NCBI RefSeq assembly: GCF_022374875.2
Contig: NZ_CP092427.2
Span: forward strand, 3,162,001-3,226,000
Reading direction: 5' to 3'
Source of the DNA: Mycolicibacterium rufum
GTDB lineage: Bacteria > Actinomycetota > Actinomycetes > Mycobacteriales > Mycobacteriaceae
Length of the DNA stretch: 64,000 nt
Shown here piece after piece: positions 6,450 through 55,021 of the stretch (positions are counted from its first letter, which is position 1; the number at the start of each line of letters is the position of its first letter). The position numbers and the translations under genes were made by a program. The notes beneath the pieces are model-generated. The model worked only from the letters and a program-made list of their open reading frames with translations, was not told the DNA's origin and searched no databases.

Positions 6450-6494
6450 CAATTGATTTGCCCCGACGGCGGCTGCCGGACCACCCTGGGGACA

Positions 6495-7721
6495 GTGAGC
6501 CGCGCCCCGAGCACCGCCCCTGCACCGACGGTAACCCATGGTCGGCCCCGACCGGCCATCGTCACGGTGTTCACGGCGGTCGCGATCATGCTGGTGGCGG
6601 CCAATCTGCGTCCCGCGGTGGTGGCGGTGGCCCCGCTGGTCGGCGACATCAAGGCGGCGACGGGCTGGAGCAGCGCGGTGACCGGGCTGCTCACCACGCT
6701 GCCGGTGCTGGTGTTCGGTCTGGTCGCCCCGCTGGCGCCGCGCTGCGCGGCCCGCTTCGGCATCGAACGGACCGTGTTCGCGGCTATGGCCGTGCTGATC
6801 GTGGCGACCGCGGTGCGCCTGATGCCCGCACCGAGCGCGCTGTTCGCGGGTTCGGCGCTGGCCGGTGCCGGCATCGGGATCTGCAATGTCGTGCTGCCCT
6901 CGCTGATCAAGCGGGATTTCCCGCACCGCTCCGGGCTGATGACCGGTCTGTACTCGATGACGCTGTCCGGCGGCGCCGCCGCGGCGGCCGCGCTGACGAT
7001 CCCGATCAACGACGCGCTGGGCGGCGACTGGCGGTTGGCGCTGGCGAGCTGGGGGCTGTTCGCGGTGCTCGCGCTCGTCATCTGGATCCCGCAGCTGCGG
7101 CGGGTGCACCGCGTCCAGGTCGGCCGCACGCCACCGTCGCTGTGGCGCAATCCGGTCGCGTGGGCCATCACGGTGTTCATGGCCGCGCAGTCGCTGATCT
7201 TCTACACCTTCACCGCGTGGCTGCCCGAGGTCCTGATCGACCGCGGCATGTCGCCGGGCGCCGCCGGAGCGGTGCTGGCGCTGGGCCAGGTGGCCGGGCT
7301 GTCGATGTCGCTGGTCGCGCCGATCGTCGCCGGCCGCTCCGCCGACCAACGGGTGATCACGATGCTGGCGCTGGCCACCACCGCGGTCGGCTTCGTCGGC
7401 CTGCTGACCACCCACTCCGCGCCCACCCTGTGGGCCATGCTCGTGATGGCCGGGCCCGGCGCGTCGATCAGCCTGGCGCTGCTGTTCATGGTGCTGCGGA
7501 GCACGTCGACGGTGCAGACCAGCCAGGTGTCGGGGATGGCGCAGAGCGTCGGCTACGGGCTTGCCGCCGTCGGTCCGGTGGCGATCGGCCTGCTGCACGA
7601 CGTGACCGGGTCGTGGACCGTCGCGATGGCGGTGCTGGCGCTCGCGCTGCTGCCGCAGGCGCTCTCGACGCTGCTCGCCGCGAAGGACGTCACGATGGAC
7701 GCCCATCAAAAAAGCCGGTGA
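6495..7721 (+). CDS. MFS transporter of the CynX/NimT family
   Basis: A 408-residue protein with about 12 hydrophobic segments. The opening motif VAIMLVAANLRPAVVAVAPL is the hallmark of the CynX/NimT (cyanate or 2-nitroimidazole) branch of the major facilitator superfamily. Its direction of transport and substrate are not evident. It is divergent from the phosphatase operon with about 100 bases between starts. A GTG at 6495 is chosen over a TTG at 6453. The stop codon lies inside the hairpin at 7712-7741, shared with the convergent small gene. Confidence 0.8.
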   Translation: MSRAPSTAPAPTVTHGRPRPAIVTVFTAVAIMLVAANLRPAVVAVAPLVGDIKAATGWSSAVTGLLTTLPVLVFGLVAPLAPRCAARFGIERTVFAAMAVLIVATAVRLMPAPSALFAGSALAGAGIGICNVVLPSLIKRDFPHRSGLMTGLYSMTLSGGAAAAAALTIPINDALGGDWRLALASWGLFAVLALVIWIPQLRRVHRVQVGRTPPSLWRNPVAWAITVFMAAQSLIFYTFTAWLPEVLIDRGMSPGAAGAVLALGQVAGLSMSLVAPIVAGRSADQRVITMLALATTAVGFVGLLTTHSAPTLWAMLVMAGPGASISLALLFMVLRSTSTVQTSQVSGMAQSVGYGLAAVGPVAIGLLHDVTGSWTVAMAVLALALLPQALSTLLAAKDVTMDAHQKSR

Positions 7722-7757: not shown

Positions 7758-7901
7758 TCAGCCCTGGGCGGTCTCGTAGCGTTCGGCGACCGCCAGCAGC
7801 TCATCGCGGATGGACGAGTCGGGCAGCGACCGGATCCGCGCGTAGAGGCGCCGCCGGTCACGGGCGAGCTTGATGTTGGCGCGGAACTGCGCGACAGACA
7901 T
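7758..7901 (-). CDS. Small basic conserved protein, 47 residues
   Basis: Begins MSVAQFRANIKLARDRR and continues with a charged amphipathic helix (RIRSLPDSSIRDELLAVAERYE). It is predicted to be entirely helical, with a basic N-terminal half and an acidic C-terminal half. I know of similar short proteins in mycobacteria but no function. Support for its being real comes from the strong terminator just downstream and from regular codon use. The start at 7901 was chosen because the extension upstream is arginine/proline noise. Function unknown. Confidence 0.65.
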   Translation of the reverse strand: MSVAQFRANIKLARDRRRLYARIRSLPDSSIRDELLAVAERYETAQG

Positions 7902-7955
7902 GGTGCGTGTACTCCTCGATCGTGTCCCCGGGTCCCGGGAACGGGTGGTGGCGGG

Positions 7956-7985
7956 CCTGCTGGGCGGGGATCGCCCTCCAGCAGG
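7956..7985 (-). other. Stem-loop in the leader of the 47-residue gene
   Basis: CCTGCTGG at 7956-7963 pairs perfectly with CCAGCAGG at 7978-7985 around a 14-base loop, extendable by a G-U pair. It lies 55 bases upstream of the minus-strand gene starting at 7901, so it would be in the 5' leader if transcription starts further upstream. No riboswitch class was recognised. The rest of the 236 bases between 7902 and 8137 shows nothing else I can name. Confidence 0.35.
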
Positions 7986-8137
7986 CACAACGGGTCATGC
8001 TCCCTTGTTAATTCCGTGTAAATCAACTTCGCTGGGTGTGAGTTCACCGACTGTGAGCGCCATCACGTCGTTTGCTGTGCGGCGGCACGAGTGCGTTTCA
8101 CAGGACTAGTGCGGCGCGTAGTGGGTACCGGGAGCAC

Positions 8138-8308
8138 ATGGCACCCGACGACGCTGATCTCGACGACGTGATGGTTCCCACCGAGCAAGCTCACCCCGAT
8201 CACCGTGAGCACGCCAAGGCGTCCGATCACCCCGACGACGACGACCTGGCGCGGCGCACCGAGCACGAGCGCCACGTGGTCGAGGCGGACCGGGAGACGG
8301 GCCGGTGA
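8138..8308 (+). CDS. Small acidic His/Asp-rich protein, 56 residues
   Basis: Starts MAPDDADLDDVMVPTEQ and is dominated by Asp, Glu, His and Arg (for example SDHPDDDDLARRTEHERH). It has no signal peptide or hydrophobic segment and is probably disordered. A purine-rich stretch (gggagc) precedes the ATG. Its stop overlaps the GTG of the next small gene, which supports both as a coupled pair. Function unknown; metal binding is possible from composition but not shown. Confidence 0.5.
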   Translation: MAPDDADLDDVMVPTEQAHPDHREHAKASDHPDDDDLARRTEHERHVVEADRETGR

Positions 8309-8421
8309 CCGGCCCCGAGGAGTCACCCGACCAGACGTCCCCGGACACCACCGACGTCCCGCCGGCCAACCCCGGCTACGCGACCCCGCCGCCCGAGGGC
8401 ATCCCCGACGCCGACGGCTGA
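8305..8421 (+). CDS. Small Pro-rich protein, 38 residues
   Basis: Begins with GTG at 8305, overlapping the previous stop by four bases (GTGA). The product starts V-T-G-P-E-E-S-P-D-Q and ends NPGYATPPPEGIPDADG, a short Pro/Gly/Asp-rich, probably disordered peptide. The last three codons and the stop lie within the first copy of the 26-bp direct repeat at 8405-8430, immediately before the signalling island. Function unknown. Confidence 0.45.
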   Translation: MTGPEESPDQTSPDTTDVPPANPGYATPPPEGIPDADG

Positions 8422-8430
8422 CGCCTCACC
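8405..8430 (+). repeat. Left copy of 26-bp direct repeat bounding the signalling island
   Basis: Identical in all 26 positions to 20840-20865; the core is ACGGCTGACGCCTCACC, and identity stops abruptly at both edges. It spans the 3' end and stop of the 38-residue gene plus eight untranslated bases. A chance exact match this long in 64 kb is very unlikely. Interpreted as one end of a 12.4-kb inserted segment. The insertion mechanism is unknown. Confidence 0.8.
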
Positions 8431-8442
8431 TCTTACGGGCGG

Positions 8443-10008
8443 TCACAGCACCGTCTCGACGAGCGCCGACTCGGCCTCCTCGAGCAGCACCGCTTCGGCA
8501 CGGTGATAGAAGTGCCGGGCCTCCTCAGGGCTGTCGCCCACGGCGGTCATCCCCAACCGGCCACGCTCGGTCAGGCAGCTGATCATGTGGAACACCACCC
8601 CTGTTCGGCGAGCCTGATCGAAGTGCAGGCCATGGGTGACGACGGTGTCGAACAGGTCGGCACCGGTCAGCGCCTTCAACCGGACGTCTTCGAGATGATC
8701 GGTGGCCACGAGGTACTTCGGGGTGCCGTGCGGGGTGAGGAACACCCCATGTTCGCCGTCGTAGGTCCCGTCGGTGAGGAACTGCAAGGTGAGGAACGGA
8801 TGAGTGGTGCCCCCCTTGCGGAGGTTGAGCTCGATCGCATAGGGCGTCCAGGTGCCGTTGTCGTCCTGGACGACGACGAAGTCGACCGCGAACCGGCCGA
8901 GGACACCGAGGCGTGCCAGATGTCGTCCGATCACCATCGCGGGCTCGGCGATGCTCACGGCATACCGGTGATCCGCCGGGAAGATGCAGCCGAGGTAACG
9001 CTGGCCGCTTGCGCCGCCGAGCATCTGGTCATGAGTGGACAGCAATTCGACCGAGCCGTCGGGGAGCGCGCGCATCTGGACGCTGGGGCTCGTCAGGATG
9101 ATGCCGCTGATCCGTTCCTCGACGATTCCACCGTGCGTCGCGAAGTCCGTCAGGTAGGCGTCGACGGACAGGCCCTCCGCCTCGGGCGCCAGCTTGCCGA
9201 TGCGGTCGGCGATCGCCGACCCCTCGTCCGGAGCGCCCGGCGCCGGGAGGTCACGGAGGTCGACCATCGCGTTGCCCGCTCCTGAGACCCCCTCGTTGAG
9301 TTTGACGATCGCCTGCGTCAGCGACGGGCGCCGGGTGCGCATGCTCTGCACGCCCGCGACGATGTCGTCGACGGTGTGAAGATTCTCCGCTCCGACAGGG
9401 CATCGGACCCCGAGCTCCTCGAACAGCCTCCGGCATCCGGTTTTGCTGCCGAGGTCGGCGAGCCGCGGATCCGCGCCGTACATCGGAATCCCCAGCGACA
9501 GGGCCACGTCGCGCTCGAGACCCGTGGTGTTGTACGGAATGAGATGGCTGCGTGCGGGATTGGGAATCAGGGAGCGGATGTGGCGCAGGAGGTTCGGCCG
9601 GGCGAGCAGCTTCGCGCTCAAGGGCATCGGAGTCGCGTCGTTCACCGAGAGCAGGGTCAACCGCCGGCGGGCATGGCTGGGGATCACGCCGGGCAGCAAC
9701 CCGAGGTAGTACTCGACGATCGGTTCGGCGATGGGCTGGGACGTCACGTAGATCATCCGCAGCCGAGACTGGCGCAACAGCAGGAGCAGGAACAGCGCGC
9801 GCTCCTCCATCGCCTGCATCACGGTGCCGTTGCCTGCCGTCGACGCGAGGCTGATCGACGGCACGACGACGACCGACTCGTCGGGCATGTCGAGCCGCAT
9901 GGACTCCCACACCGACGGCATCGCGCGCTGCAATTCGTCGAAGCGCCGGTAGCGTTCATCCTCGTCGAGCTCAGACAGTGTGCGCCCGACGATCTCCGTT
10001 GTGGTCAT
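8443..10008 (-). CDS. PGM1-like ATP-grasp peptide ligase
   Basis: A 521-residue protein with a pre-ATP-grasp N-terminal domain (VVVVPSISLAS... and VTSQPIAEPIVEYYLGLLPG) and an ATP-grasp domain from about residue 190. Visible ATP-grasp elements are AIVKLNEGVSGAGN, IVEERISG and YAIELNLRKGGTTHP, the last carrying the metal-binding Glu/Asn. That final motif is characteristic of ligases related to pheganomycin PGM1, which join carboxylates to amines of peptides. It is the last gene of the island operon and overlaps the cyclase stop by ATGA. The peptide and amine substrates are unknown; a 33-codon gene at the operon head is a candidate. Confidence 0.75.
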   Translation of the reverse strand: MTTTEIVGRTLSELDEDERYRRFDELQRAMPSVWESMRLDMPDESVVVVPSISLASTAGNGTVMQAMEERALFLLLLLRQSRLRMIYVTSQPIAEPIVEYYLGLLPGVIPSHARRRLTLLSVNDATPMPLSAKLLARPNLLRHIRSLIPNPARSHLIPYNTTGLERDVALSLGIPMYGADPRLADLGSKTGCRRLFEELGVRCPVGAENLHTVDDIVAGVQSMRTRRPSLTQAIVKLNEGVSGAGNAMVDLRDLPAPGAPDEGSAIADRIGKLAPEAEGLSVDAYLTDFATHGGIVEERISGIILTSPSVQMRALPDGSVELLSTHDQMLGGASGQRYLGCIFPADHRYAVSIAEPAMVIGRHLARLGVLGRFAVDFVVVQDDNGTWTPYAIELNLRKGGTTHPFLTLQFLTDGTYDGEHGVFLTPHGTPKYLVATDHLEDVRLKALTGADLFDTVVTHGLHFDQARRTGVVFHMISCLTERGRLGMTAVGDSPEEARHFYHRAEAVLLEEAESALVETVL

Positions 10009-11138
10009 GATTCCTCCCCGTGGGACGGTTCTTCAATGTGAATGATGTTGTGCACTCGAACGATTCGGCTGAATCCCTTGAGCTTCAGATCGCCGACGGG
10101 TTCGGATCCACACGAGAGGTGCTCGACCCCCGCGAGTACCCGATCGGTGGCCAGCACCTGCCACGGGCCGGCCTCGCCGCACAGCCGTGCGGACAGATTC
10201 GTCACGCTGCCGATCGCCGCGTAGTCGAACCGACCCTCGAAACCGATGCGGCCGAGTGTCGCGTACCCCTGCGCGATGCCCAGTCCCACGGCGAGGTCGT
10301 GGCCGATCCGCTGCCAGCGCGCCGCCAGGTCGCGGACGGCATCCCGGATGGCGAGCGACATGCGCACTGCGCGTTCGGCGGCGTCGTCGCACGGCACGGG
10401 ATCGTTGAAGAACACCATGATGCCGTCGCCGGTGAACCGCTCCAGAGTCCCCTCATAGCGATGCACCAGCGCGCCCATCGTCCGGTGGTATTCGCCGAGC
10501 ACCTCCATGACCTCTTCCGGAGCGCTGGTCTCGGCGAACGGGGTGAAATTGCGCAGGTCGGCGAAGACCACGACGATCTCGCGGCGGTGGCTTTCGAGGA
10601 GACTCTCCTCGCCGAGCACGAGACGAGCCAACTGCGGAGACAGGAAGTAGCTCAACCGATTCGCCCGCTCCAGTTCGGCGACCTGCTCACCGACTCTGGC
10701 TTCGAGTTCGGCGTTCCAGGCCGCCAGTTCGAGAGCCTGCCGACGGATGGTGTCCTGATAGCGCTTGATGCGTGCCAGTGAGGCCACCCGGGCGAGCAAC
10801 TCACTCTGGTCGAACGGCTTGGTGACGAAATCGTCGGCGCCCGACTCCAGGGCGGCCAGCCGTTGCTCCCTGCCACTGGCGGTGATCATCACCACCGGCA
10901 GAAACTCGGTGGCCTCGGTGGCGCGGATGTGTCGGCAGACGGCGTGCCCGTCCATGTCGGGCATCACGATGTCGAGCAGAACGATGTCGATGTCGTTGCG
11001 CTCCAACAGTGTCAATGCCTCCTGACCGGACCCCGCAGTGAGGACCCGGTGCCCTCGCGGGGACAGCACGGCATCGAGGAGTCGTAGATTCACGGGTTCG
11101 TCGTCGACCGCCAGCACGGTCACCGGGTCATCCGTCAC
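10005..11138 (-). CDS. Response regulator with class III adenylate/guanylate cyclase output
   Basis: A 377-residue protein. Residues 5-120 form a receiver with acidic pocket VDDE and phospho-acceptor D56 (IVLLDIVMPDMDG), T86 and K107 (VTKPFD). A coiled linker covers about 125-165. Residues 185-360 form a class III cyclase with metal-binding D194 (VVFADLRNF) and D238 (RFTGDGIMVFF). Phosphorylation would be expected to control nucleotide cyclisation. It overlaps by ATGA both the hybrid kinase gene before it and the ATP-grasp gene after it, so the kinase is the likely phosphodonor. ATP versus GTP specificity cannot be decided by eye. Confidence 0.88.
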   Translation of the reverse strand: MTDDPVTVLAVDDEPVNLRLLDAVLSPRGHRVLTAGSGQEALTLLERNDIDIVLLDIVMPDMDGHAVCRHIRATEATEFLPVVMITASGREQRLAALESGADDFVTKPFDQSELLARVASLARIKRYQDTIRRQALELAAWNAELEARVGEQVAELERANRLSYFLSPQLARLVLGEESLLESHRREIVVVFADLRNFTPFAETSAPEEVMEVLGEYHRTMGALVHRYEGTLERFTGDGIMVFFNDPVPCDDAAERAVRMSLAIRDAVRDLAARWQRIGHDLAVGLGIAQGYATLGRIGFEGRFDYAAIGSVTNLSARLCGEAGPWQVLATDRVLAGVEHLSCGSEPVGDLKLKGFSRIVRVHNIIHIEEPSHGEES

Positions 11139-13375
11139 CGCTGCTTCCCTTCTCCGATGATCCGGTGCATCGCACCGCGGAATTCGTCCCTGCCGACCGG
11201 TTTTCGCAGATAGGCGTCGGCCCCCAGGGCAATCGCCCGTGGCCGATCGTCAACCGCCGAGGCGACGATGACGGATATCCCGGCGGTCGACGGGTCCGAT
11301 TTCAGTTCTGCGAGAACGTGCCAGCCGTCGAGTCGCGGCAGGGCGATGTCGAGAACCACTCCCGCGGGCCGTACCCGCCGGATCAGCTCCAGTGCCTGGA
11401 TGCCGTCCTGCGCCTTGAGCACCCGGGCCCGGGTGCCCTGCAGGTATGCCTCGAGCAGATCGATCGAGGCGCGGTCGTCGTCGACGAGCACCAGCACGGG
11501 TCCTCGAGAGGGGGCGGCGACGGTCAGCTCGTCGCCGAACTCCACCGGAGAGGGGAGTACCGGGATCGAGAATCCGAAGGTGCTGCCCACGCCGACGGCG
11601 CTGGTGAGCCACATGCGACCACCGAACAGCTCGACGATCCGCCGGGACAGGGTCAGGCCCAGCCCGGTGCCTTCGCCTTTGGCCGGTCCCCGCTTGCCTT
11701 GCTGAAACGATTCGAAGATCCGTTGCCGGTCCTCGGGGGCGACCCCGATCCCGGTGTCGGTGACCGTGACGATGAGGTCCTCATCGTCACCGCGCACGCA
11801 GACCGCCACGCTCCCGCCGTCGGGAGTGAACTTGACGGCGTTGGTCACCAGATTCAGCACGATCTGCTTGAACCGCAGTTCGTCGGCTTCGATGACGTCG
11901 ATGCCGTCGGCGGACTCGACCGAGATGCCGATCTCGTGAGCGGCTGCCCTGTCCCGGACCATCGCGAGGACGTCCCTGACCGCATCGGCGACGGAGAACG
12001 TGCTGGGATCGAGCACCATTTTTCCGGCCTCGACCTTGGACAGGTCCAGGATCTCGTTGAGCAGCTCCAAGAGGTGGCGGCCGGAATTCCAGATGTCACG
12101 CAGGTATTCCCTCTGACGGTCGTTGATGTCGCCGAACGTGCCGTCCAACAACACCTCCGAGAAGCCGATCACCGCGTTGAGCGGGGTGCGCAGCTCGTGC
12201 GACATGCTGGCCAGGAACTCCGATTTGTGGTTGCTCGCGATCTCGAGTTCCCTGCTCTTGGTCTCCACCTCCCGGTACAGCCGAGCGTTGACGATGGCCA
12301 GTGCCGATTGACCGGCGAACGTCGAGAGCAGCTCGATCACGTCCGGCGGGAACTCGTCGGTGCCGCGGCGGCGGATCAACAGCACGCCAACCAGGGTGTC
12401 GCCCCGCAGCATCGGCACTGCCAGCAGCGAGCGCCAACCGTCCGCGAACACCGTGTCCAGGAGCGGATCTCGCTGCGCCTGCTCGAGATCCGGGATCGCG
12501 CACGGCCGACGCGTCGTCGCGGCCCGACCGACCAGAGCGCACCCACGGTCGATGGTGATAGCGCGCAGTTGTTTCAGCAACCGCCGGCTCGTCCCGGTCG
12601 TGTCACGAACGGAGAAGGTGTCTGTGGCGGCGTCGTATTCGAGAATGGTGCCACCGTCGGTGCGCAGCGTGATGTCACCGAAGCCGAGGTTGGTCAGCCG
12701 CACCGCGTTGCCGACGATACGCTCGAGCACTTCGTCGAGGTCGAGACTGGACCCGACCGCCTCATCGACCTGTTGGAGTGCCTCCAGCTGAGCGACCTTG
12801 TCGGCGAGTTCGGCGCGGCGCGTCGTCAGCGCCTGGACGAGGTGGACCTGCCGCAGCGCGATCGCGCCCTGGACGGCGAACTCCTCGAGGCGTTGCCGGT
12901 CGCGGTCGTCGAACGGTGCGACGTCAGTACGCCACATGGACAGAACCCCGACGACCTCGTCCTCGGACAGCAACGGTGTGGACAGCAGCGTGCGGAAGCC
13001 GGTCAACCGCTGCAGATCCAAGCGCCCGTAGTCGGCGTCGCTGAGCACGTCGGCGACCTGGTGGGTGCAGCGGTCCTCGGCTGCGCGCCCCACCGTGGAG
13101 GATCTGTTCCGGGCGATCGGATTGCCCAGCAGGTATTCGCGGTACTCCTCGGGGGTGTCGGCGGACGCCCGCGACAGGCGGAAGCCGTCACCGTCGACGA
13201 CGAACAGCTGCGCGGCGGCGGCGCCACACAGCCGCGCGGCGTAACCCACGATGGTGTCCAGCACAGCGCCGGGATCGGCGACGTCACGACCGAGCGCGGC
13301 CAGAATCTCGCGGGTGGCCGCCGACTGTTCGTGCGCGTCGCGGAGTTCGTCGTCGCGACCGTCGTTCGTGCTCAT
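11135..13375 (-). CDS. Hybrid sensor histidine kinase (GAF-GAF-HisKA-HATPase-REC)
   Basis: A 746-residue cytoplasmic hybrid kinase with no membrane segment. Two GAF domains span roughly 30-180 and 210-370. The dimerisation helix has H393 in SMSHELRTPLN. The ATPase domain shows LNLVTNAVKFTPDG, DTGIGVAPE and GTGLGLTLS. The C-terminal receiver has D676 (GVVLDIALPRLDG) and the conserved Lys in LRKPVG. Start at ATG 13375 because the region before it lacks coding character and overlaps the spacer after the PknG-like gene. Phosphate could pass to the downstream cyclase receiver. The GAF ligands are unknown. Confidence 0.88.
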   Translation of the reverse strand: MSTNDGRDDELRDAHEQSAATREILAALGRDVADPGAVLDTIVGYAARLCGAAAAQLFVVDGDGFRLSRASADTPEEYREYLLGNPIARNRSSTVGRAAEDRCTHQVADVLSDADYGRLDLQRLTGFRTLLSTPLLSEDEVVGVLSMWRTDVAPFDDRDRQRLEEFAVQGAIALRQVHLVQALTTRRAELADKVAQLEALQQVDEAVGSSLDLDEVLERIVGNAVRLTNLGFGDITLRTDGGTILEYDAATDTFSVRDTTGTSRRLLKQLRAITIDRGCALVGRAATTRRPCAIPDLEQAQRDPLLDTVFADGWRSLLAVPMLRGDTLVGVLLIRRRGTDEFPPDVIELLSTFAGQSALAIVNARLYREVETKSRELEIASNHKSEFLASMSHELRTPLNAVIGFSEVLLDGTFGDINDRQREYLRDIWNSGRHLLELLNEILDLSKVEAGKMVLDPSTFSVADAVRDVLAMVRDRAAAHEIGISVESADGIDVIEADELRFKQIVLNLVTNAVKFTPDGGSVAVCVRGDDEDLIVTVTDTGIGVAPEDRQRIFESFQQGKRGPAKGEGTGLGLTLSRRIVELFGGRMWLTSAVGVGSTFGFSIPVLPSPVEFGDELTVAAPSRGPVLVLVDDDRASIDLLEAYLQGTRARVLKAQDGIQALELIRRVRPAGVVLDIALPRLDGWHVLAELKSDPSTAGISVIVASAVDDRPRAIALGADAYLRKPVGRDEFRGAMHRIIGEGKQR

Positions 13376-13413
13376 GATGTCTCGGATCGTCGGACGGTGG
13401 TGGTGGTCCCGCC

Positions 13414-13427
13414 CGATCGGCCGATCG
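13414..13427. repeat. 14-bp perfect palindrome between PknG-like and histidine kinase genes
   Basis: CGATCGGCCGATCG sits in the 82-base spacer between the PknG-like stop (13458) and the kinase start (13375). It could be a protein-binding site for an internal promoter, or a short intercistronic hairpin. The palindrome itself is seen; the role is inference. Confidence 0.35.
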
Positions 13428-13457
13428 CCGTTCGTCGGCAGCCGGGCGTGCCGCCGT

Positions 13458-16664
<3,207 letters not shown>

Positions 16665-16668
<4 letters not shown>

Positions 16669-17936
16669 AGGAACTCCTTGAGTCGCGGCCACATGCCCGC
16701 GGTCGCAGCAGCCGCCGCCAGCGTCGCCGACACGATCACCGCCACCGGGGTCCACGTGAGCGCCGCGCCCGCGGACGACACCGCCTCGCGCATGACGGTC
16801 CTGGTCTGGTCGATCTCGGTGGCCAGTCCTGTTTCCACGACCCGGAACTGGGCCGGCGAGGCGTCCGGATCGGAGCCGATCGCCTGGGCCATCGCGGTGG
16901 CGAAGTCGCCGCCCCGGTAGGCCCGGACCTGCGTGTCGTGGCTGGCCACCCACCGGCCGACGGCATCCACGGTGGATTGCGGACCCGACCCCAGTGCAGC
17001 CAACAGTCTGCCGATATGGTCCGCGTAATCCCTTTCGAAGTCGGTGACGTCGCTGCGCGCGATGAGCTCCAGGGTCTCGTCGGTGCGGGCCTGCTGGGCG
17101 TTGATGCGTGCCGTCGCGAGGCGCTCGAACCGGTGGATCCCGGCGGCGTGGCCGCGATCGATGTCGTCGGCCGCCAGTCGGGTCGCGACGAGCATGGAGA
17201 GGATCGCCAGCACAGCGAAACCCGCCGCAGCGATGAGACCGACGTTGAATTGGCGGTTCGTGCGCAGCAGCAGGAGCGCCGATGCAGCCGCGACTTCGAC
17301 GACGACGAGGCCGAGCAGCACGAGTCCGCTCAGGGGGAGGACGCCGATCGAAGCCTGCTGGAGGTTCAGCGCGGCGAGGCCGTCGTCCAGAATCCCCTTG
17401 GCGCCCGGCAACAGACGGGTTTGCATCAGCGAAGACGCCTCCCGGAGGTATGCCGAACCGACGGGGTAGTTGCGCAGGTTGTTGACCCGAGCGGCCTCGA
17501 CCAGGCCGGTGTAGGTCGACAACTGAACCGTGATCTCCGCGACCGCGGTCCGTACACCGAGGTCGCCGGCCCCCGTGGTCACGTCCGCCAGCGCGGAGGC
17601 GGCCGCGGCGAGGGACTGGTCGTACCGTTCGCGCATCGCCGGTGTCTGGATGCCGCCGGAGAGGAAGGCGGTTGCCGCGGTGGCATCGGCTTCCGACAGT
17701 GCCGCGTAGAGGTTCTGCGCCGCGAAGACGAACGGCTCGGAGTGCCGGAGCACGTTGTGGTGCGCGGCGATTCGGTGCTGGAGTCCGGTGACGCTGACCG
17801 CCGCGGCGACCGTGCACGACGCCACGATCATCAGCGTGATGACGATGAGGATCCCCGGGGTGGTTCGGGCGAAGCGCCGCACCGGCGGGACCCCGGTGGA
17901 CAGGAAGCCCCGTCTCGGCGGCGATGCGACGCTCAT
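16665..17936 (-). CDS. GlnX-like transmembrane sensor/transducer
   Basis: A 423-residue membrane protein of the GlnX (Rv0412c) type. It has an N-terminal TM helix at 28-48 (TPGILIVITLMIVASCTVAA), a helical extracytoplasmic region, paired TM segments around 205-265 (IGVLPLSGLVLLGLVVVEVA and VGLIAAAGFAVLAILSML), a second helical loop and a last TM near 395-415 (WTPVAVIVSATLAAAAATAG). The duplicated helix-bundle layout resembles chemoreceptor sensory domains. In the known system GlnX passes the GlnH signal across the membrane to PknG. It overlaps both the 33-codon gene upstream (ATGA) and GlnH downstream. Confidence 0.82.
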
Positions 17937-18034
17937 GTCGCCGCCTCGATCTCGATGGTGCTGCCCGACAGCATGTTTGACGAATCAAAGAATGCCTGCG
18001 GCGAGATCGAGCGACGACGTCCCCGGTCGGTCAT
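17933..18034 (-). CDS. 33-residue peptide encoded at the head of the PknG-like operon
   Basis: A small ORF with a strong ribosome-binding site (AGGAGGGG, 6 bases before the ATG at 18034); its stop overlaps the GlnX-like ATG as ATGA. The product begins MTDRGRRRSISPQAFFDSS, has a central N-M-L-S-G-S-T and ends in acidic/small residues (EIEAAT). It has no signal peptide or TM helix. It could be a translational-coupling leader, a regulatory peptide, or a substrate of the PGM1-like ligase encoded at the other end of the operon. The ORF and RBS are seen; all roles are inference. Confidence 0.6.
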   Translation of the reverse strand: MTDRGRRRSISPQAFFDSSNMLSGSTIEIEAAT

Positions 18035-18109
18035 CGCACCCCTCCTTCGCCTCCTGCCGTCACCGCGACTGACAGCTCAATCGTCGCTCCATGTGGCAGG
18101 GGTCACACA

Positions 18110-18123
18110 AGTAGTGCACTACT
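18110..18123. promoter_or_regulatory. 14-bp perfect palindrome, putative operator between divergent island genes
   Basis: AGTAGTGCACTACT is a perfect dyad 76 bases from the 33-codon gene start and 100 bases from the LuxR-type gene start. ACACA and TGTGT flank it at unequal distances (about 18105 and 18129). Two-fold symmetry in a divergent intergenic region beside a LuxR-type gene suggests a regulator-binding site for both promoters. No function is proven. Confidence 0.55.
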
Positions 18124-18222
18124 CATTCTGTGTCCGGCGTGGCGTTTTCGAGTACTTGCATCGGCACGGACAGGCGGGATTTCGGCATGTGCCGGCCCAG
18201 CGGGCTGACCTAATCTGAGCTC

Positions 18223-20856
18223 ATGCGGTTGACGTGGCCGTTGACGGGCCGCGCGGCGGAGACGAGGCTCATCGAGTCGGCGCTGTCGGAGCCGGCCGTG
18301 GCCGGGATCGTGGTCAGCGCGGCCGCCGGCGTGGGCAAGAGCCGCCTGATGCACGAGGCGCTCGACGCCGCGCGCACCCGCGGCTGCACGGTGCGCACGG
18401 TGATCGGGACGTCCTCGGCGCGGCGCATTCCTCTGGGCGCGCTGGCGGCGTGGGCCACCGCCCACGACGGCGGGGGCGTGCAGCTGGTCTGCGGAGTGAT
18501 CGAGTCACTGATCGCGGCCCCCGACGGGTGCGCTGTGGTGGTGGGAGTCGACGACGTGCATCTACTCGACGAGGTGTCGGTGTTCGTTCTGCACCAGATC
18601 GTGCAGAGGCGGGCCGCTCGCGTGGTACTCACGGTCCGGACGGGTGAGCCGATTCCCGACGGTGTGCGTGATCTCTGGAAGGTCGGCGACTTCGACTGGC
18701 TCGATCTGCAGCCCCTCGCACTGGACGGCACCAGGTCGCTCCTCGAGGCGGCCCTGGGTGCGATGCCCGACACCGACGCCGTCGTCCGTCTTCACCGACT
18801 CACCCTGGGCAATCCGTTGTACCTCCGCCACATCGTGGAGCAGGAGGTCAGCCAGGGGCGGCTCGCCGAACACGAGGGGTGGTGGCGGTGGAGCGGCGAA
18901 CCCGTCGTGCCGCGCAGCCTCGCCGAACTGATCGACGCCCGGATCGGCGACCTGCCCGCCGAGATCGGCACGGTGGTCGACGCACTGGCCGTCGGCGAAC
19001 CCCTCAGCCTGTCGGCGTTGCAGCGGATCACCGATCCGGCCGCGGTCGAGGAGGCGGACGACCGCGGGCTGATCTCCCTCGAACGACGCGGCACGGCCGT
19101 CGAGGTGCGGGTGGCACATCCGCTCTACGGCGAGGTTCGGCGCAGCCGTGCCGCCCCCACCCGGCTGAGGCGGCTGCGTGGACTGGTCGCCGGCGAATTG
19201 GCCGCCGGTGCCGACCACGACGATGTACAGGTGCTGGTGCGTCGTGCGGCATTGAGCCTCGACTCCGACCTGCAGCCGGACGGCGACCTGTTGACGGCAG
19301 CCGCGCACGCCGCGGTCTGCCTGGCCGATCTGCCGCTGGCGGACCGGTTGGCCGCCGCGGCGGTCGATGCGGGTGCGGTACCGGAAGCGCAGTTCATCCG
19401 GGCCCACGCGCTGTCGTGGCTCGGAGACGGCCGCGGCGCCGAAGAGGTGCTCGCCGGCGTGGACGTCACGACCCTGAGCGACGACGTCTTCGCCCGCTTC
19501 ACCTACCACCGTGCCAGCAACATGCTCTGGGCCCTGGCCGACCCGCACCGGGCCGAGGCCCTCGTCGATCTCGCGGCGCAGTTGCCGACCGAGTCGGCCC
19601 GCCGCTGCGTCGCCGCCATCAGAACCGTGTGCCGCTTCGCCACCGACCGTCCCGCGGCGGCGCTCGCCGCCGCGGAGGACGTCGTCCTCGAGGAGTTGCC
19701 TGCTGTGATCGGCGCCGAAACGGCGTGGGTGCTGGCGAACATCTATGGCGACGCCGGGCGCATCTCCGATGCGCTGGCGGTGGCCGAGAGAGGTCTGGCG
19801 ATCGTCCGGAGCTCCGATGCTCCACACCTGGGCCTCAACATCGTCGACGCGCAAGTCGGTGCACTCCTGCTGGCCGGCAGGGTCGACGACGCCGCCGAAC
19901 TGGCCGAGCGCGGTCGAGTCCAGGCCGATGATCTGCCCGGGGCGGCTCACCTCCTGGGTTCTGCGATCGCAGGCCGCGCCGCTCTGGGCGCCGGACGCGT
20001 GGACGTCGCCCGTGAGCTGTTGCGGCGCTCGTCGACGGCGCTGTCAGCCACCGGATACGCGCTCGGATGGGGTTATCGCTACTGCCTGCCGCATGCAGCC
20101 GCGCTGGCGATGAGCGGAGAGCACGCCGAGGCGGCCGACGTGCTGGCCTCCCTGGATTCGCGCAAGCGCCCCTTCCGCTCGCTGGACGACGAGGCCAGCT
20201 CGGTTCGGGCGTGGATGGCGGCCGGTCAGGGTGCTGTCGGCGAAGCCGTCGCCATCCTGCTTGATGCAGCGCGCAGTGCCGCGGCCAGTGGCCGTCACGC
20301 CGTCGAGGTGGCCTGCCTGCAAACGGCCGTGCAGTTCGGGGATCACACGTGCGCCGCCCGCCTCGGTGAACTGCGCCGCCTGGTGGAAGGTCCCCGGGCC
20401 GCGGTGGCGGCCCGGTTCGCGGTGGCGCTGCGGGATGAGGACGGAGACGAACTCGGCGCCGTGTCCGAGGCGTTCGCAGAGCTCGGCGACCAGCTCGCCG
20501 CCCTGGACGCGGCCGCACACGCGGCAGCGGTGTTCCGGCGTGCCGATCGTCGTGGCTCGTCGATGACGTGGACGGCTCGCGCGCAGGACCTCGCCGCTCG
20601 ATGCGGCCACATCTGGACTCCCGCGCTGGCGCGTGTCTGTTCCCCGTTGCCGCTGACCGACCGGGAACGCGAGATCGTCGCGCTGCTCGGCCTGGGGTTG
20701 TCGAACCGGGACATCGCGCACCGGCTCGTGCTGTCGGTGCGGACCGTCGAGGGCCATATCTACCGGGCGATGATGAAGACCGGCACCGCCAGTCGGGACG
20801 AGCTCGGGGATCTGCTGCGGCCCCGGAATCTGCCTGATTCCGACGCCGACGGCTGA
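18223..20856 (+). CDS. LuxR-family transcriptional regulator, LAL (large ATP-binding) type
   Basis: An 877-residue regulator. An AAA/NACHT-like ATPase lies at the N-terminus, with P-loop SAAAGVGKSR at about 32-41 and a Walker B-like VVVGVDDVHLLDE. A long helical repeat region covers about 300-800. A C-terminal LuxR HTH (PLTDREREIVALL...LSNRDIAHRLVLSVRTVEGHIYRAMMKTGT) spans about 807-865. It is divergent from the PknG-like operon across a 188-base gap with a 14-bp palindrome and is the obvious candidate to control it. The last codons and stop lie inside the right copy of the 26-bp repeat. Confidence 0.88.
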   Translation: MRLTWPLTGRAAETRLIESALSEPAVAGIVVSAAAGVGKSRLMHEALDAARTRGCTVRTVIGTSSARRIPLGALAAWATAHDGGGVQLVCGVIESLIAAPDGCAVVVGVDDVHLLDEVSVFVLHQIVQRRAARVVLTVRTGEPIPDGVRDLWKVGDFDWLDLQPLALDGTRSLLEAALGAMPDTDAVVRLHRLTLGNPLYLRHIVEQEVSQGRLAEHEGWWRWSGEPVVPRSLAELIDARIGDLPAEIGTVVDALAVGEPLSLSALQRITDPAAVEEADDRGLISLERRGTAVEVRVAHPLYGEVRRSRAAPTRLRRLRGLVAGELAAGADHDDVQVLVRRAALSLDSDLQPDGDLLTAAAHAAVCLADLPLADRLAAAAVDAGAVPEAQFIRAHALSWLGDGRGAEEVLAGVDVTTLSDDVFARFTYHRASNMLWALADPHRAEALVDLAAQLPTESARRCVAAIRTVCRFATDRPAAALAAAEDVVLEELPAVIGAETAWVLANIYGDAGRISDALAVAERGLAIVRSSDAPHLGLNIVDAQVGALLLAGRVDDAAELAERGRVQADDLPGAAHLLGSAIAGRAALGAGRVDVARELLRRSSTALSATGYALGWGYRYCLPHAAALAMSGEHAEAADVLASLDSRKRPFRSLDDEASSVRAWMAAGQGAVGEAVAILLDAARSAAASGRHAVEVACLQTAVQFGDHTCAARLGELRRLVEGPRAAVAARFAVALRDEDGDELGAVSEAFAELGDQLAALDAAAHAAAVFRRADRRGSSMTWTARAQDLAARCGHIWTPALARVCSPLPLTDREREIVALLGLGLSNRDIAHRLVLSVRTVEGHIYRAMMKTGTASRDELGDLLRPRNLPDSDADG

Positions 20857-20865
20857 CGCCTCACC
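20840..20865 (+). repeat. Right copy of 26-bp direct repeat bounding the signalling island
   Basis: Exact copy of 8405-8430 in the same orientation. It covers the last five codons and stop of the LAL regulator plus nine downstream bases. Flanking bases differ immediately on both sides. Together with the left copy it delimits 12,435 bases per repeat unit. No integrase or transposase lies inside, so mobilisation, if it occurred, was in trans or by recombination. Confidence 0.8.
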
Positions 20866-20901: not shown

Positions 20902-22230
20902 TCACGACCCTCTCTTCTCACCCGCGGACGCACGATCGCCGGCGAGCGGGCGCACCGCGACCAGCACCGTGCCGGCCAGGAACAGCGCGGCCGCCGATAC
21001 CGGCAACCGCCCGCCCGGCGCGAAACCGTTGGCGGACAGCAGGGCCAGCGCCAGCGCGCATGCCGCGGTGCCCGCGTAGAGCAGAGCTTCGGCGAGCGCA
21101 CCGGGGATCGGGACGGCGACCGTCGGCGCCGGCGCCGCGACGAATCGGCGCTGCCAGTAGAGCAGCGCCAACAGCCCCGCCGCGACGACCGCCAGCACCA
21201 GTTCCCACTCGAGACGCGCGAGCCACCACGCGCCGGAACCCAGGGGGGGCTGCGGCAGCAGCCCGGTGGGGTAGCCGATGAGCGTCACGACGATCACCGG
21301 CAGCATGTGCCACAGGTACAGCGCCATCACGTTCTCGTTGGCGAGCGCGATCACCCGCGGCCAGACGCCGCGCGCCAGGATCCGGTTGAGCACCGGCACC
21401 AGCGCGAACAACACACCGATCTGGACCAGCGCCAGCGCGAGCAGCGCCGCCGACGGCGGGGCGCTATTCTCCACGCGGTCTCCGGGCACCCCGATCATCG
21501 CGATCGGATACGGCCCCCAGGTGACCAGCGCGGGCAGCGTCAGCGCGGCCACCACCGCCGTCGACACCAGCGTGCGCCTGCTCAGAAGTCCGTCGTGGAA
21601 AGCGATTCCGAGCTGATAGATCGCCGCCCAGCAGAAGAAGTAGTTGGCCATCCGGATCTCGGGATGGTGCGTCGAGATCCCCACCGCGTCCACCAGGACC
21701 AGGCACGCGCCGAGCGCGACGGGCACCGCGAGACCCCAGCGCCGATGCGCGGCCACGGCGAGCGGCGTCAACGCCACGACCATCAGATAGACGGCCAGGA
21801 ACCACAGATGCATGGCCACCGCCCAGCCGCCCAGCTCCAGTACCGTGCCGCTGATGCCGAGCGTCGACAGCACCCCGATCACGATCAGCACGAACAGCGC
21901 GTAGACGCCGGTCGGGCCCAGCACGCGGGCGACCCGGCGACGGATCCACTCCTGCCGTTCCGCGGTGCCCGCGTCGGCCGGCAACCGTTCCCAGGACACC
22001 GCGCTGACGTAGCCGGCGACGGCGAAGAACACCGGAACCACCTGGAAGAACCAGGTGATCCACTGCGTCCACGGCATCAGCACCAGCGGGTTGTCGCGGC
22101 CGAAGGCGCCGTCCCGGTACGTCATCACCGACAGCAGCCAGTGCCCGATCACGACCAGCAGCACCGCCGCCGACCGGTACAGGTCGAGGGCGTGTTCGCG
22201 CGGGGGCGAGGGCGCGGTGGGCTCGGGCAT
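20902..22230 (-). CDS. Acyltransferase-3 family integral membrane protein (OafA-like)
   Basis: A 442-residue protein with 10-11 TM segments. The N-terminal helix ALDLYRSAAVLLVVIGHW contains the invariant R and H of acyltransferase-3 proteins, and later PVFFAVAGYVSAVSW, AMHLWFLAVYL and ALYLWHMLPVIVV fit the family. Known relatives transfer acetyl or succinyl groups to sugars, lipids or antibiotics at the membrane. The substrate is not indicated by neighbours. It is the first gene outside the repeat-bounded island. Confidence 0.82.
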   Translation of the reverse strand: MPEPTAPSPPREHALDLYRSAAVLLVVIGHWLLSVMTYRDGAFGRDNPLVLMPWTQWITWFFQVVPVFFAVAGYVSAVSWERLPADAGTAERQEWIRRRVARVLGPTGVYALFVLIVIGVLSTLGISGTVLELGGWAVAMHLWFLAVYLMVVALTPLAVAAHRRWGLAVPVALGACLVLVDAVGISTHHPEIRMANYFFCWAAIYQLGIAFHDGLLSRRTLVSTAVVAALTLPALVTWGPYPIAMIGVPGDRVENSAPPSAALLALALVQIGVLFALVPVLNRILARGVWPRVIALANENVMALYLWHMLPVIVVTLIGYPTGLLPQPPLGSGAWWLARLEWELVLAVVAAGLLALLYWQRRFVAAPAPTVAVPIPGALAEALLYAGTAACALALALLSANGFAPGGRLPVSAAALFLAGTVLVAVRPLAGDRASAGEKRGS

Positions 22231-22938: not shown

Positions 22939-23277
22939 ATGAGCACATTCCTCGCCCGCGCCGCACTCGCGGCGATCGCACCGGCGGCGGCGCTGCTGGC
23001 CGTCGCGGTCCCGGCGGCCGCCCAGCCCGCCCCGCCGCCCCCGCCGAACTGCACGGCCGCCGACCTGGCCGGCGTGATGGCCGGTGTCACCGCGTCCACC
23101 TCGGCGTACCTGTTCACCCACCCGGACGTAAATGACTTCTTCACCAGCCTCAAGGGCAAGAGCCGCGACGAGATGAAGACCGCGGTCGAGGGCTACATCG
23201 CCGGCCGCCCGGACGTCGGCGACGCGCTGCGGGCGATCCGCCAGCCCTCGGTCGACTTCCGCAACCGCTGCGGCTAG
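22939..23277 (+). CDS. Hemophore-related exported protein (MHB fold)
   Basis: A 112-residue protein. The signal peptide ends VPAAAQPA, followed by a short Pro run and a compact helical domain (NCTAADLAGVMAGVTASTSAYL, HPDVNDFFTSL, then YIAGRPDVGDALRAIRQP), with Cys residues at both ends for one disulfide. This is the layout of mycobacterial hemophore/heme-binding (Rv0203-like) proteins. Heme binding is expected from the family but the ligand residue was not verified. A good ribosome site (gacaggagcacc) precedes ATG 22939. Confidence 0.8.
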   Translation: MSTFLARAALAAIAPAAALLAVAVPAAAQPAPPPPPNCTAADLAGVMAGVTASTSAYLFTHPDVNDFFTSLKGKSRDEMKTAVEGYIAGRPDVGDALRAIRQPSVDFRNRCG

Positions 23278-54598: not shown

Positions 54599-55021
54599 TC
54601 AGGACACGGGGATGGAGGCGCAGCCGACGCCCGGGATGCAGCCCGAGACGCCGCCGGGTCCGGCCGAGCCGCCGACGCCGCCGGGGTTGGTGCTGCCGCT
54701 CGCGCCGCCCGGTCCGGCCACACCGGAGGGGCCGCCGGGGATCGCGCCGCTGGCACCGTCGGGACCGGCCGCACCGGCCACGCCACCGGGGTTGGTGCTG
54801 CCGCTGACACCCCCGGGGCCGGCGACGCCGCCGGGCCCGCCGGGGATGGCGCCGCTGGCGCCGCCGGGGCCGGCCGTGCCCGCGGTCACGCAGGGCGTGC
54901 CGTCGGGATTGAAGCACGGCGGCGGCGCGGGCTGCGCGAAAGTCAGAGGCGCGGTTGCGATTGCAGTCGCAGCGGCGCCCGCGAAGATCAAGGAACCGAG
55001 ATTCAGAGTCTTGTGTCGCAT
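54599..55021 (-). CDS. Exported Gly/Pro-rich collagen-like repeat protein
   Basis: A 140-residue protein. The signal peptide (LGSLIFAGAAATAIATAPLTFA) ends at AQPA. A short Cys-containing segment (CFNPDGTPC) precedes two full and one partial copy of a 35-residue repeat built from AGPGGASGAIPGGPGG and VAGPGG(V/A)SGSTNPGG. The end has two more Cys (SGCIPGVGCAS). It lacks PE or PPE domains, so it is not PE_PGRS. Flexible surface or secreted role is inferred only. Confidence 0.7.
   Translation of the reverse strand: MRHKTLNLGSLIFAGAAATAIATAPLTFAQPAPPPCFNPDGTPCVTAGTAGPGGASGAIPGGPGGVAGPGGVSGSTNPGGVAGAAGPDGASGAIPGGPSGVAGPGGASGSTNPGGVGGSAGPGGVSGCIPGVGCASIPVS
54602..54874 (-). repeat. 105-bp in-frame tandem repeat (2.6 copies)
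   Basis: Copies span 54874-54770, 54769-54665 and a partial 54664-54602 on the minus strand, each encoding a 35-residue Gly-rich unit. Protein differences between the first two copies are few (G to D, G to S, V to A and A to G changes). Such repeats can change copy number by slippage or recombination. Confidence 0.7.

Follow-up and report, generated by a model that had tools for sequence, protein, structure and literature searches.

In a 64,000-nt stretch of the Mycolicibacterium rufum chromosome (NZ_CP092427.2, positions 3,162,001–3,226,000; genome 6.1 Mb), hereafter the window, to which all coordinates are relative, a 12.4-kb group of signalling genes is bounded by an exact 26-bp direct repeat (Table 1). 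We put at roughly 0.55 the probability that this group is a laterally acquired signalling island, exchanged within a single chromosomal gap by recombination in the flanks, that the repeat is a lineage-specific by-product, and that the cargo is an amino-acid-responsive relay. An original prediction made from the sequence had proposed an inserted cassette; this is supported by an empty gene order in two relatives, by a patchy distribution of the cargo in the genus and by an island history that, in one or both of two sister species, departs from that of the flanks.

The site was searched for in 396 genus genomes (sampled from a larger group, one genome per species) with the MFS transporter gene left of the island and its downstream spacer as the query, only matches above 1,400 bits being counted as the site. 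Such matches were obtained in five genomes: that of M. rufum itself, G070, M. chubuense DSM 44219 (G283), G213 and G019. A contig search further yielded M. chlorophenolicum (L132, G412), and a second genus search centred on M. chubuense (395 genomes, apparently the same sample) returned eight matches, all in genomes already found. In G213 and G019 the site is empty, as the original prediction had anticipated for some relatives: the order is MFS–orf76–orf78–orf38–acyltransferase, where the numbered genes are small open reading frames (ORFs), and there is one orf38 tail. In the window, G070, M. chubuense and M. chlorophenolicum the island occupies the same gap, between orf76 and the acyltransferase gene, with four different junctions. 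The orf78–orf38 block lies to the left of the island in the window, which has the 26-bp repeat, and to the right of it in G070, which has no long repeat. In M. chubuense neither the block nor a repeat was found, and the end of the LAL gene resembles the orf38 tail; in M. chlorophenolicum the block was likewise not found, and a copy of the right flank (62 bp, 97% identical) stands to the left of the island. The 26-bp repeat is thus not a fixed feature of the insertion, since the other occupied sites have either no repeat or a different one. The original prediction had looked to relatives with the same flanks and neither repeat nor island junction as evidence against insertion; relatives without the repeat do exist, but an island junction is there. 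As a separate observation, four bases (GCAG) occur near both ends of the island in G070 (L091), which could be due to chance. In G014 and G068 (L098, L107), relatives of the MFS and acyltransferase genes lie about 6 kb apart with other genes in between; these loci were not used as an instance of a hot spot with other cargo, the orthology of the site not being established.

An indication of exchange comes from the sister species M. chubuense and M. chlorophenolicum. At four-fold degenerate sites the two differ by 0.104 in the flanks (12 genes, 2,744 sites) and by 0.337 in the island (7 genes, 2,157 sites), corresponding to a corrected island/flank ratio of 3.98, as against 1.33–1.60 for the other five pairs among the four carriers. 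Two ORFs, at 23150 and 30513, were dropped from the cleaned four-fold ratios, the trees and the pattern counts because they hardly differ in any carrier pair and therefore look off-frame; pooling with both included gave a flank difference of 0.093 for this pair. Informative four-fold patterns favour the sister pair over the two alternatives by 122:19:14 in ten flank genes, compared with 34:48:65 in the seven island genes. Measured in 500-base steps, identity between the two species is 0.98 at orf76, drops to 0.79–0.90 within the island and is back at 0.96 in the acyltransferase gene. The flank tree unites them with a support of 100/100, whereas in a tree of five island genes that also includes 11 outside carriers M. 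chubuense falls outside the group of G070 and M. chlorophenolicum, and the approximately unbiased (AU) test on this tree rejects the M. chubuense–M. chlorophenolicum pair (p = 0.015). It follows from this discordance in four-fold distance, patterns, identity and trees that at least one of the two species re-acquired or swapped its island, at the same site, after their separation.

The two copies of the repeat in the window are identical over 26 of 26 bases, in direct orientation, and the neighbouring bases differ on both sides, as originally described. No other exact direct repeat in the window is as long, and in 60 simulated windows (order-5 Markov) the longest repeat was 17–21 bp; the runner-up in the window is a 20-base repeat at 54681–54700 and 54786–54805. 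A genome-wide pattern search allowing up to three mismatches matched only the two known places (a control pattern gave 0 matches), which answers the proposal that further copies be sought. Both copies also end a gene, as had been noted, and do so in one shared frame (Asp-Ala-Asp-Gly-stop): the left copy closes the 38-codon orf38 and the right copy the LAL/LuxR gene. The proposal that the repeat is an att site or a target duplication is not supported: it is missing from the occupied sites of G070 and M. chubuense, that of M. chlorophenolicum shows another repeat, and the search for an accompanying integrase, transposase or tRNA gene was negative. The absence of an integrase or transposase inside the island had been part of the original description, and none of the large island ORFs matched such a family in Pfam or NCBIfam scans, which covered the island and not recombinases outside it; the 64-kb window contains no tRNA gene.

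The similarity of the copies bears on their age. If those in the window dated from the split from the other carriers, a 26/26 match would have a probability of 0.04 at the mean flank distance of 0.116 and of 0.0004 at the four-fold distance of 0.259 (cleaned value 0.285). The 62-bp repeat of M. chlorophenolicum has two differences, with a probability of 0.58 at the distance from M. chubuense and of 0.02 at the distance from the window. Both repeats therefore appear to be young and particular to their lineages, the statistics being of modest weight; the 26-bp repeat most likely marks a local rearrangement and not the recognition site of a mobile element.

From these junctions we infer the following course of events. 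The island would have been acquired laterally into a clade-specific gap between orf76 and the acyltransferase gene, and its versions would since have been exchanged among related mycobacteria via recombination in the flanks, with no recombinase of the island's own. In the lineage of the window, an incoming copy that already had an orf38 tail at its right end may have been anchored in the right flank, its left end being joined to an empty chromosome just behind the intact orf38. Part of the target flank, namely the orf38 tail plus 9 bases, would then stand on both sides of the island, so that one-sided joining beside an intact orf38 would account for both borders of the repeat. This could have come about by homology at the right and illegitimate joining at the left, or by circularization followed by a single crossover, with the same outcome. 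Conjugal transfer of chromosomal DNA occurs in mycobacteria. The two modes of joining are represented in homology-facilitated illegitimate recombination, for which PMC3240628 describes one homologous and one illegitimate end, as well as circularized linear DNA entering by a single crossover; either would leave flank copies such as those at the island. There the process is known in competent bacteria and E. coli, whereas here it would be read from the junctions alone.

Several observations weigh against exchange by flank recombination, above all in the lineage of the window. No discordance is seen for the island of the window itself, whose ratios to the three remaining carriers (1.33–1.60) resemble those of G070 to the two sister species (1.35 and 1.49); vertical descent with somewhat faster island genes therefore fits it. 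The original prediction had also named vertical inheritance of the island genes at this position as evidence against insertion; the discordant sister pair speaks against such inheritance, while the window's own island is compatible with it. In the window the spacer between orf76 and orf78 runs through without an island, yet it exceeds that of the empty relatives by about 30 bases and contains GTTTGCTG, a sequence that the three other carriers have near the island, in the island-side spacers. The window spacer could therefore be the scar of an old island; together with the cleaned ratios, its extra length makes vertical descent accompanied by local reshuffling slightly more probable for the window. 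In both window copies, the sequence that follows the orf38 stop does not resemble that of the relatives, which fits copying within the window's lineage and not a foreign donor. Within the discordance itself, the receiver-cyclase gene alone is tied (patterns 4:1:4), one flank step, over a SpoIIE gene, also dips to 0.86, and the branch uniting G070 and M. chlorophenolicum in the island tree is weak (88/78). Finally, 26 bp is short for homologous recombination, and the donor and the intermediate molecule of the exchange are unseen. No mycobacterial plasmid matching the ligase or GlnX was found among 72,556 plasmid records, a set from which records very near the genome of the window may be left out. 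A plasmid vehicle was accordingly set aside: six of these records match the ATP-grasp protein and three match GlnX, all below 60% identity and none mycobacterial.

The main rival is a single insertion in the ancestor of the four species, followed by tandem duplication of the island with its flank and loss of different parts, which we regard as a tentative possibility. Occupation of the same gap in all four species and the distances of the window, which fit vertical descent, speak for it; losses alone could derive all four junctions from an ancestor with the arrangement block–island–block, and the longer orf76–orf78 spacer of the window could be the scar of a lost island copy. For an old event the copies are nevertheless rather alike (differences at 0 of 26 positions in the window and at 2 of 62 in M. 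chlorophenolicum). The version with losses only was rejected on this ground, unless gene conversion kept the copies alike, although at the mean distance the evidence amounts to no more than probabilities of 0.04 and 0.02. A recent duplication in each lineage escapes this objection, but neither form explains why the island history of the sister pair is at odds with that of the flanks. Fully vertical descent of the island from before the four-species split, with the differences in divergence reflecting nothing but fast-evolving genes, would suit the five of six carrier pairs with ratios of 1.33–1.60; for M. chubuense and M. chlorophenolicum it is refuted by the ratio of 3.98, the conflicting topology and a change located no more than one 500-base step from either island end, and as a general account it is highly improbable.

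That the 26 bp are an att core or a target duplication left by the action in trans of a transposase or a site-specific recombinase would explain the exact direct repeat with sharp borders at both ends and an empty gene order with one orf38 tail. The variation among the occupied sites described above, the lack of an integrase or transposase match in the large island ORFs and of a tRNA gene in the window, and the 20 other carriers examined, which are without these flank genes on the stretches covered, make this quite improbable. The island does share an exact flanking direct repeat and a patchy distribution with integrative genomic islands that have att repeats, but differs from them in that no integrase or tRNA target was found and in that the repeat is not common to the other occupied sites. 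From a transposon with target duplication it differs in having no transposase match among the island ORFs scanned and in the inconstant length of the repeats (26 bp, 62 bp or none).

Table 1 Features of the island, its borders and its flanks in the window
Feature	Position	Strand	Remarks
MFS transporter, left flank gene	6453..7721	+	conserved in empty and occupied relatives
orf76, small flank gene	7758..7988	-	found in empty and occupied relatives
orf78 region, small ORF	8138..8308	+	start ATG chosen by eye; left of island in window, right in G070, not found in M. chubuense
orf38, 38-codon ORF	8305..8421	+	final 17 bases begin the left repeat copy
Left repeat copy	8405..8430	+	26 bp; orf38 tail plus 9 bases
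ATP-grasp ligase, PGM1_C domain, BesA-like	8443..10008	-	family and structure-relative searches
Receiver domain plus class III nucleotide cyclase	10005..11138	-	domain scan
Hybrid histidine kinase (GAF, GAF, HisKA, HATPase, receiver)	11135..13375	-	domain scan; start codon chosen at 13375
PknG-like Ser/Thr kinase (rubredoxin, kinase, TPR)	13458..15653	-	domain scan
GlnH-like solute-binding protein	15700..16668	-	Asp/Glu pocket largely conserved; start codon chosen at 16668
GlnX family signal-transducing membrane protein	16665..17936	-	family scan
33-codon ORF	17933..18034	-	ATGA overlap with GlnX start; length kept in four species, sequence not
LAL-type LuxR regulator	18223..20856	+	last codons inside the right repeat copy
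Right repeat copy	20840..20865	+	26 bp; carries last codons of the LAL/LuxR gene
Acyltransferase, right flank gene	20902..22230	-	conserved in empty and occupied relatives

Family scans bore out the gene content originally assigned to the island, namely a LAL/LuxR regulator, GlnX, a GlnH-like protein, a PknG-like kinase, a hybrid kinase, a receiver-cyclase and an ATP-grasp protein (Table 1). The G+C content is 0.66–0.71 across the island (0.66–0.69 over 8–16 kb) and 0.72–0.74 in the left flank; as a sign of foreign origin this is weak, the right-hand stretch from 22 to 40 kb also having only 0.69–0.73. In the four species the 33-codon peptide has a constant length and the same ATGA overlap with GlnX, but its amino acids are poorly conserved beyond the first codons, and no similar peptide was seen by eye upstream of GlnX in ten other carriers. 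On both counts its interpretation as the precursor of a ribosomally synthesized and post-translationally modified peptide, paired with the ATP-grasp protein, was rejected; it is possibly a conserved coupling ORF.

Three adjacent genes resemble the glnX–glnH–pknG operon of Actinobacteria (PMC6069109). The PknG-like protein has the same rubredoxin, kinase and TPR domains and aligns with solved PknG over 668 residues, with the catalytic motifs kept by eye. Of the seven GlnH side chains described there as contacting aspartate, the island protein keeps six (R147, T162, S164, R169, W232 and D250), the seventh, K161, a water contact, being replaced by arginine. The GlnX protein passes the NF058618 family model (347.4 versus 250 bits). 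The island differs from the operon in that its GlnX does not reach the cut-off of the equivalog that activates PknG (NF041460; 195.2 versus 780 bits), in that a second PknG_TPR gene elsewhere in the genome is the stronger match (496 versus 327 bits for the island copy), and in being joined to a kinase–cyclase–ligase module. In this module, the cyclase has an arginine at a position where the aligned CyaB has a lysine (DKF) and a second solved cyclase a glutamate, a position that we take to help select the substrate. The only solved relative of the ligase at E ≤ 0.01 is BesA, an L-propargylglycine–L-glutamate ligase (PDB 8yi6), to which it aligns over residues 67–509, yet it scores far under the BesA equivalog cut-off (NF042917; 130.6 bits versus 750) and lies beside signalling genes.

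A further hint at the chemistry is a protein of about 200 residues with the motif WYVAYGSN, encoded just after the ligase in 11 of 36 actinobacterial loci (L134, L135, L136, L138, L141, L145, L146, L147, L150, L159 and L163) and not seen beside the ligase in the window. It has no family in Pfam or NCBIfam. Its structural model is of low confidence (mean predicted local distance difference test score 54.8); Foldseek with this model gave six matches at E ≤ 0.001, all of them chains of human gamma-glutamyl cyclotransferase (TM-score 0.46–0.56, root mean squared deviation near 8), and a profile search weakly pointed to the same human enzyme (E 0.11–0.15). Judged from the model and the profile match, a gamma-glutamylcyclotransferase fold is a possible to likely assignment. 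Together these resemblances suggest that the cargo performs glutamyl chemistry under amino-acid and two-component control. In the proposed scheme, GlnH would sense aspartate or glutamate outside the cell and GlnX would relay this to the PknG-like kinase; in a parallel arm, the GAF-type hybrid kinase would control the receiver-cyclase; and the ATP-grasp ligase would make the output, probably a glutamyl conjugate. A bolder version, which we hold to be rather unlikely, is that of a portable cassette in which the PknG-type relay and the phosphorelay-cyclase jointly control a ligase making a diffusible gamma-glutamyl signal, cleaved in other species by the neighbouring cyclotransferase-fold enzyme, versions of the cassette being swapped between mycobacterial species at one fixed site via flank recombination.

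The cargo is patchily distributed in the genus, the ATP-grasp gene being matched in 26 of the 396 genomes, 24 of them strongly, including that of the window. Twenty-two of the 23 other strong carriers were examined at length, G381 being left out. The flank genes of this site were found in none of the 20 strong carriers located elsewhere, on the stretches covered. Kinase, receiver-cyclase and ligase occur together in 19 of these 20 (with partial matches in L118), the contig of the twentieth ending beside the ligase; PknG was also seen in 12, some contigs ending early. Gene calls for a VWA protein were obtained in 10 of these 12; PP2C, FHA and a protein lacking a Pfam match are present in some. 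Clusters in L112, L114, L117–L121 and L125–L128 are larger, with VWA between GlnH, PknG and the kinase, and some also have PP2C and FHA proteins with zinc ribbons and an unnamed protein; the cluster in the window is a version without VWA, PP2C, FHA and the unnamed protein. The contig search confirmed 122 relatives, and among the best 80 of these a receiver-cyclase (at least 50% identity) adjoins the ligase in 35, all apparently actinobacterial, while in 44 no adjoining receiver-cyclase was found (in several of them the ligase is near the contig end) and one contig ends there. The module of kinase, receiver-cyclase and ATP-grasp ligase is spread across Actinobacteria. In 11 loci titled Verrucomicrobia or Udaeobacter (L173, L175, L176, L179–L181, L185, L187, L190, L194 and L199), a DEAD-box-helicase-like gene was recognized by eye upstream of the ATP-grasp gene.

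Among the literature matches listed, there was no paper on the island or on the kinase–cyclase–ligase module. On the reading favoured here, the gap between orf76 and the acyltransferase gene is a chromosomal site at which versions of a signalling island would be gained and swapped between species, with no recombinase found inside, and at which the junctions record how. The cargo places an actinobacterial module of hybrid kinase, receiver-cyclase and BesA-like ATP-grasp ligase beside a second PknG relay, to which it would be coupled in some mycobacteria. If the ligase does make a glutamyl conjugate, this would hint at the product of such signalling clusters.

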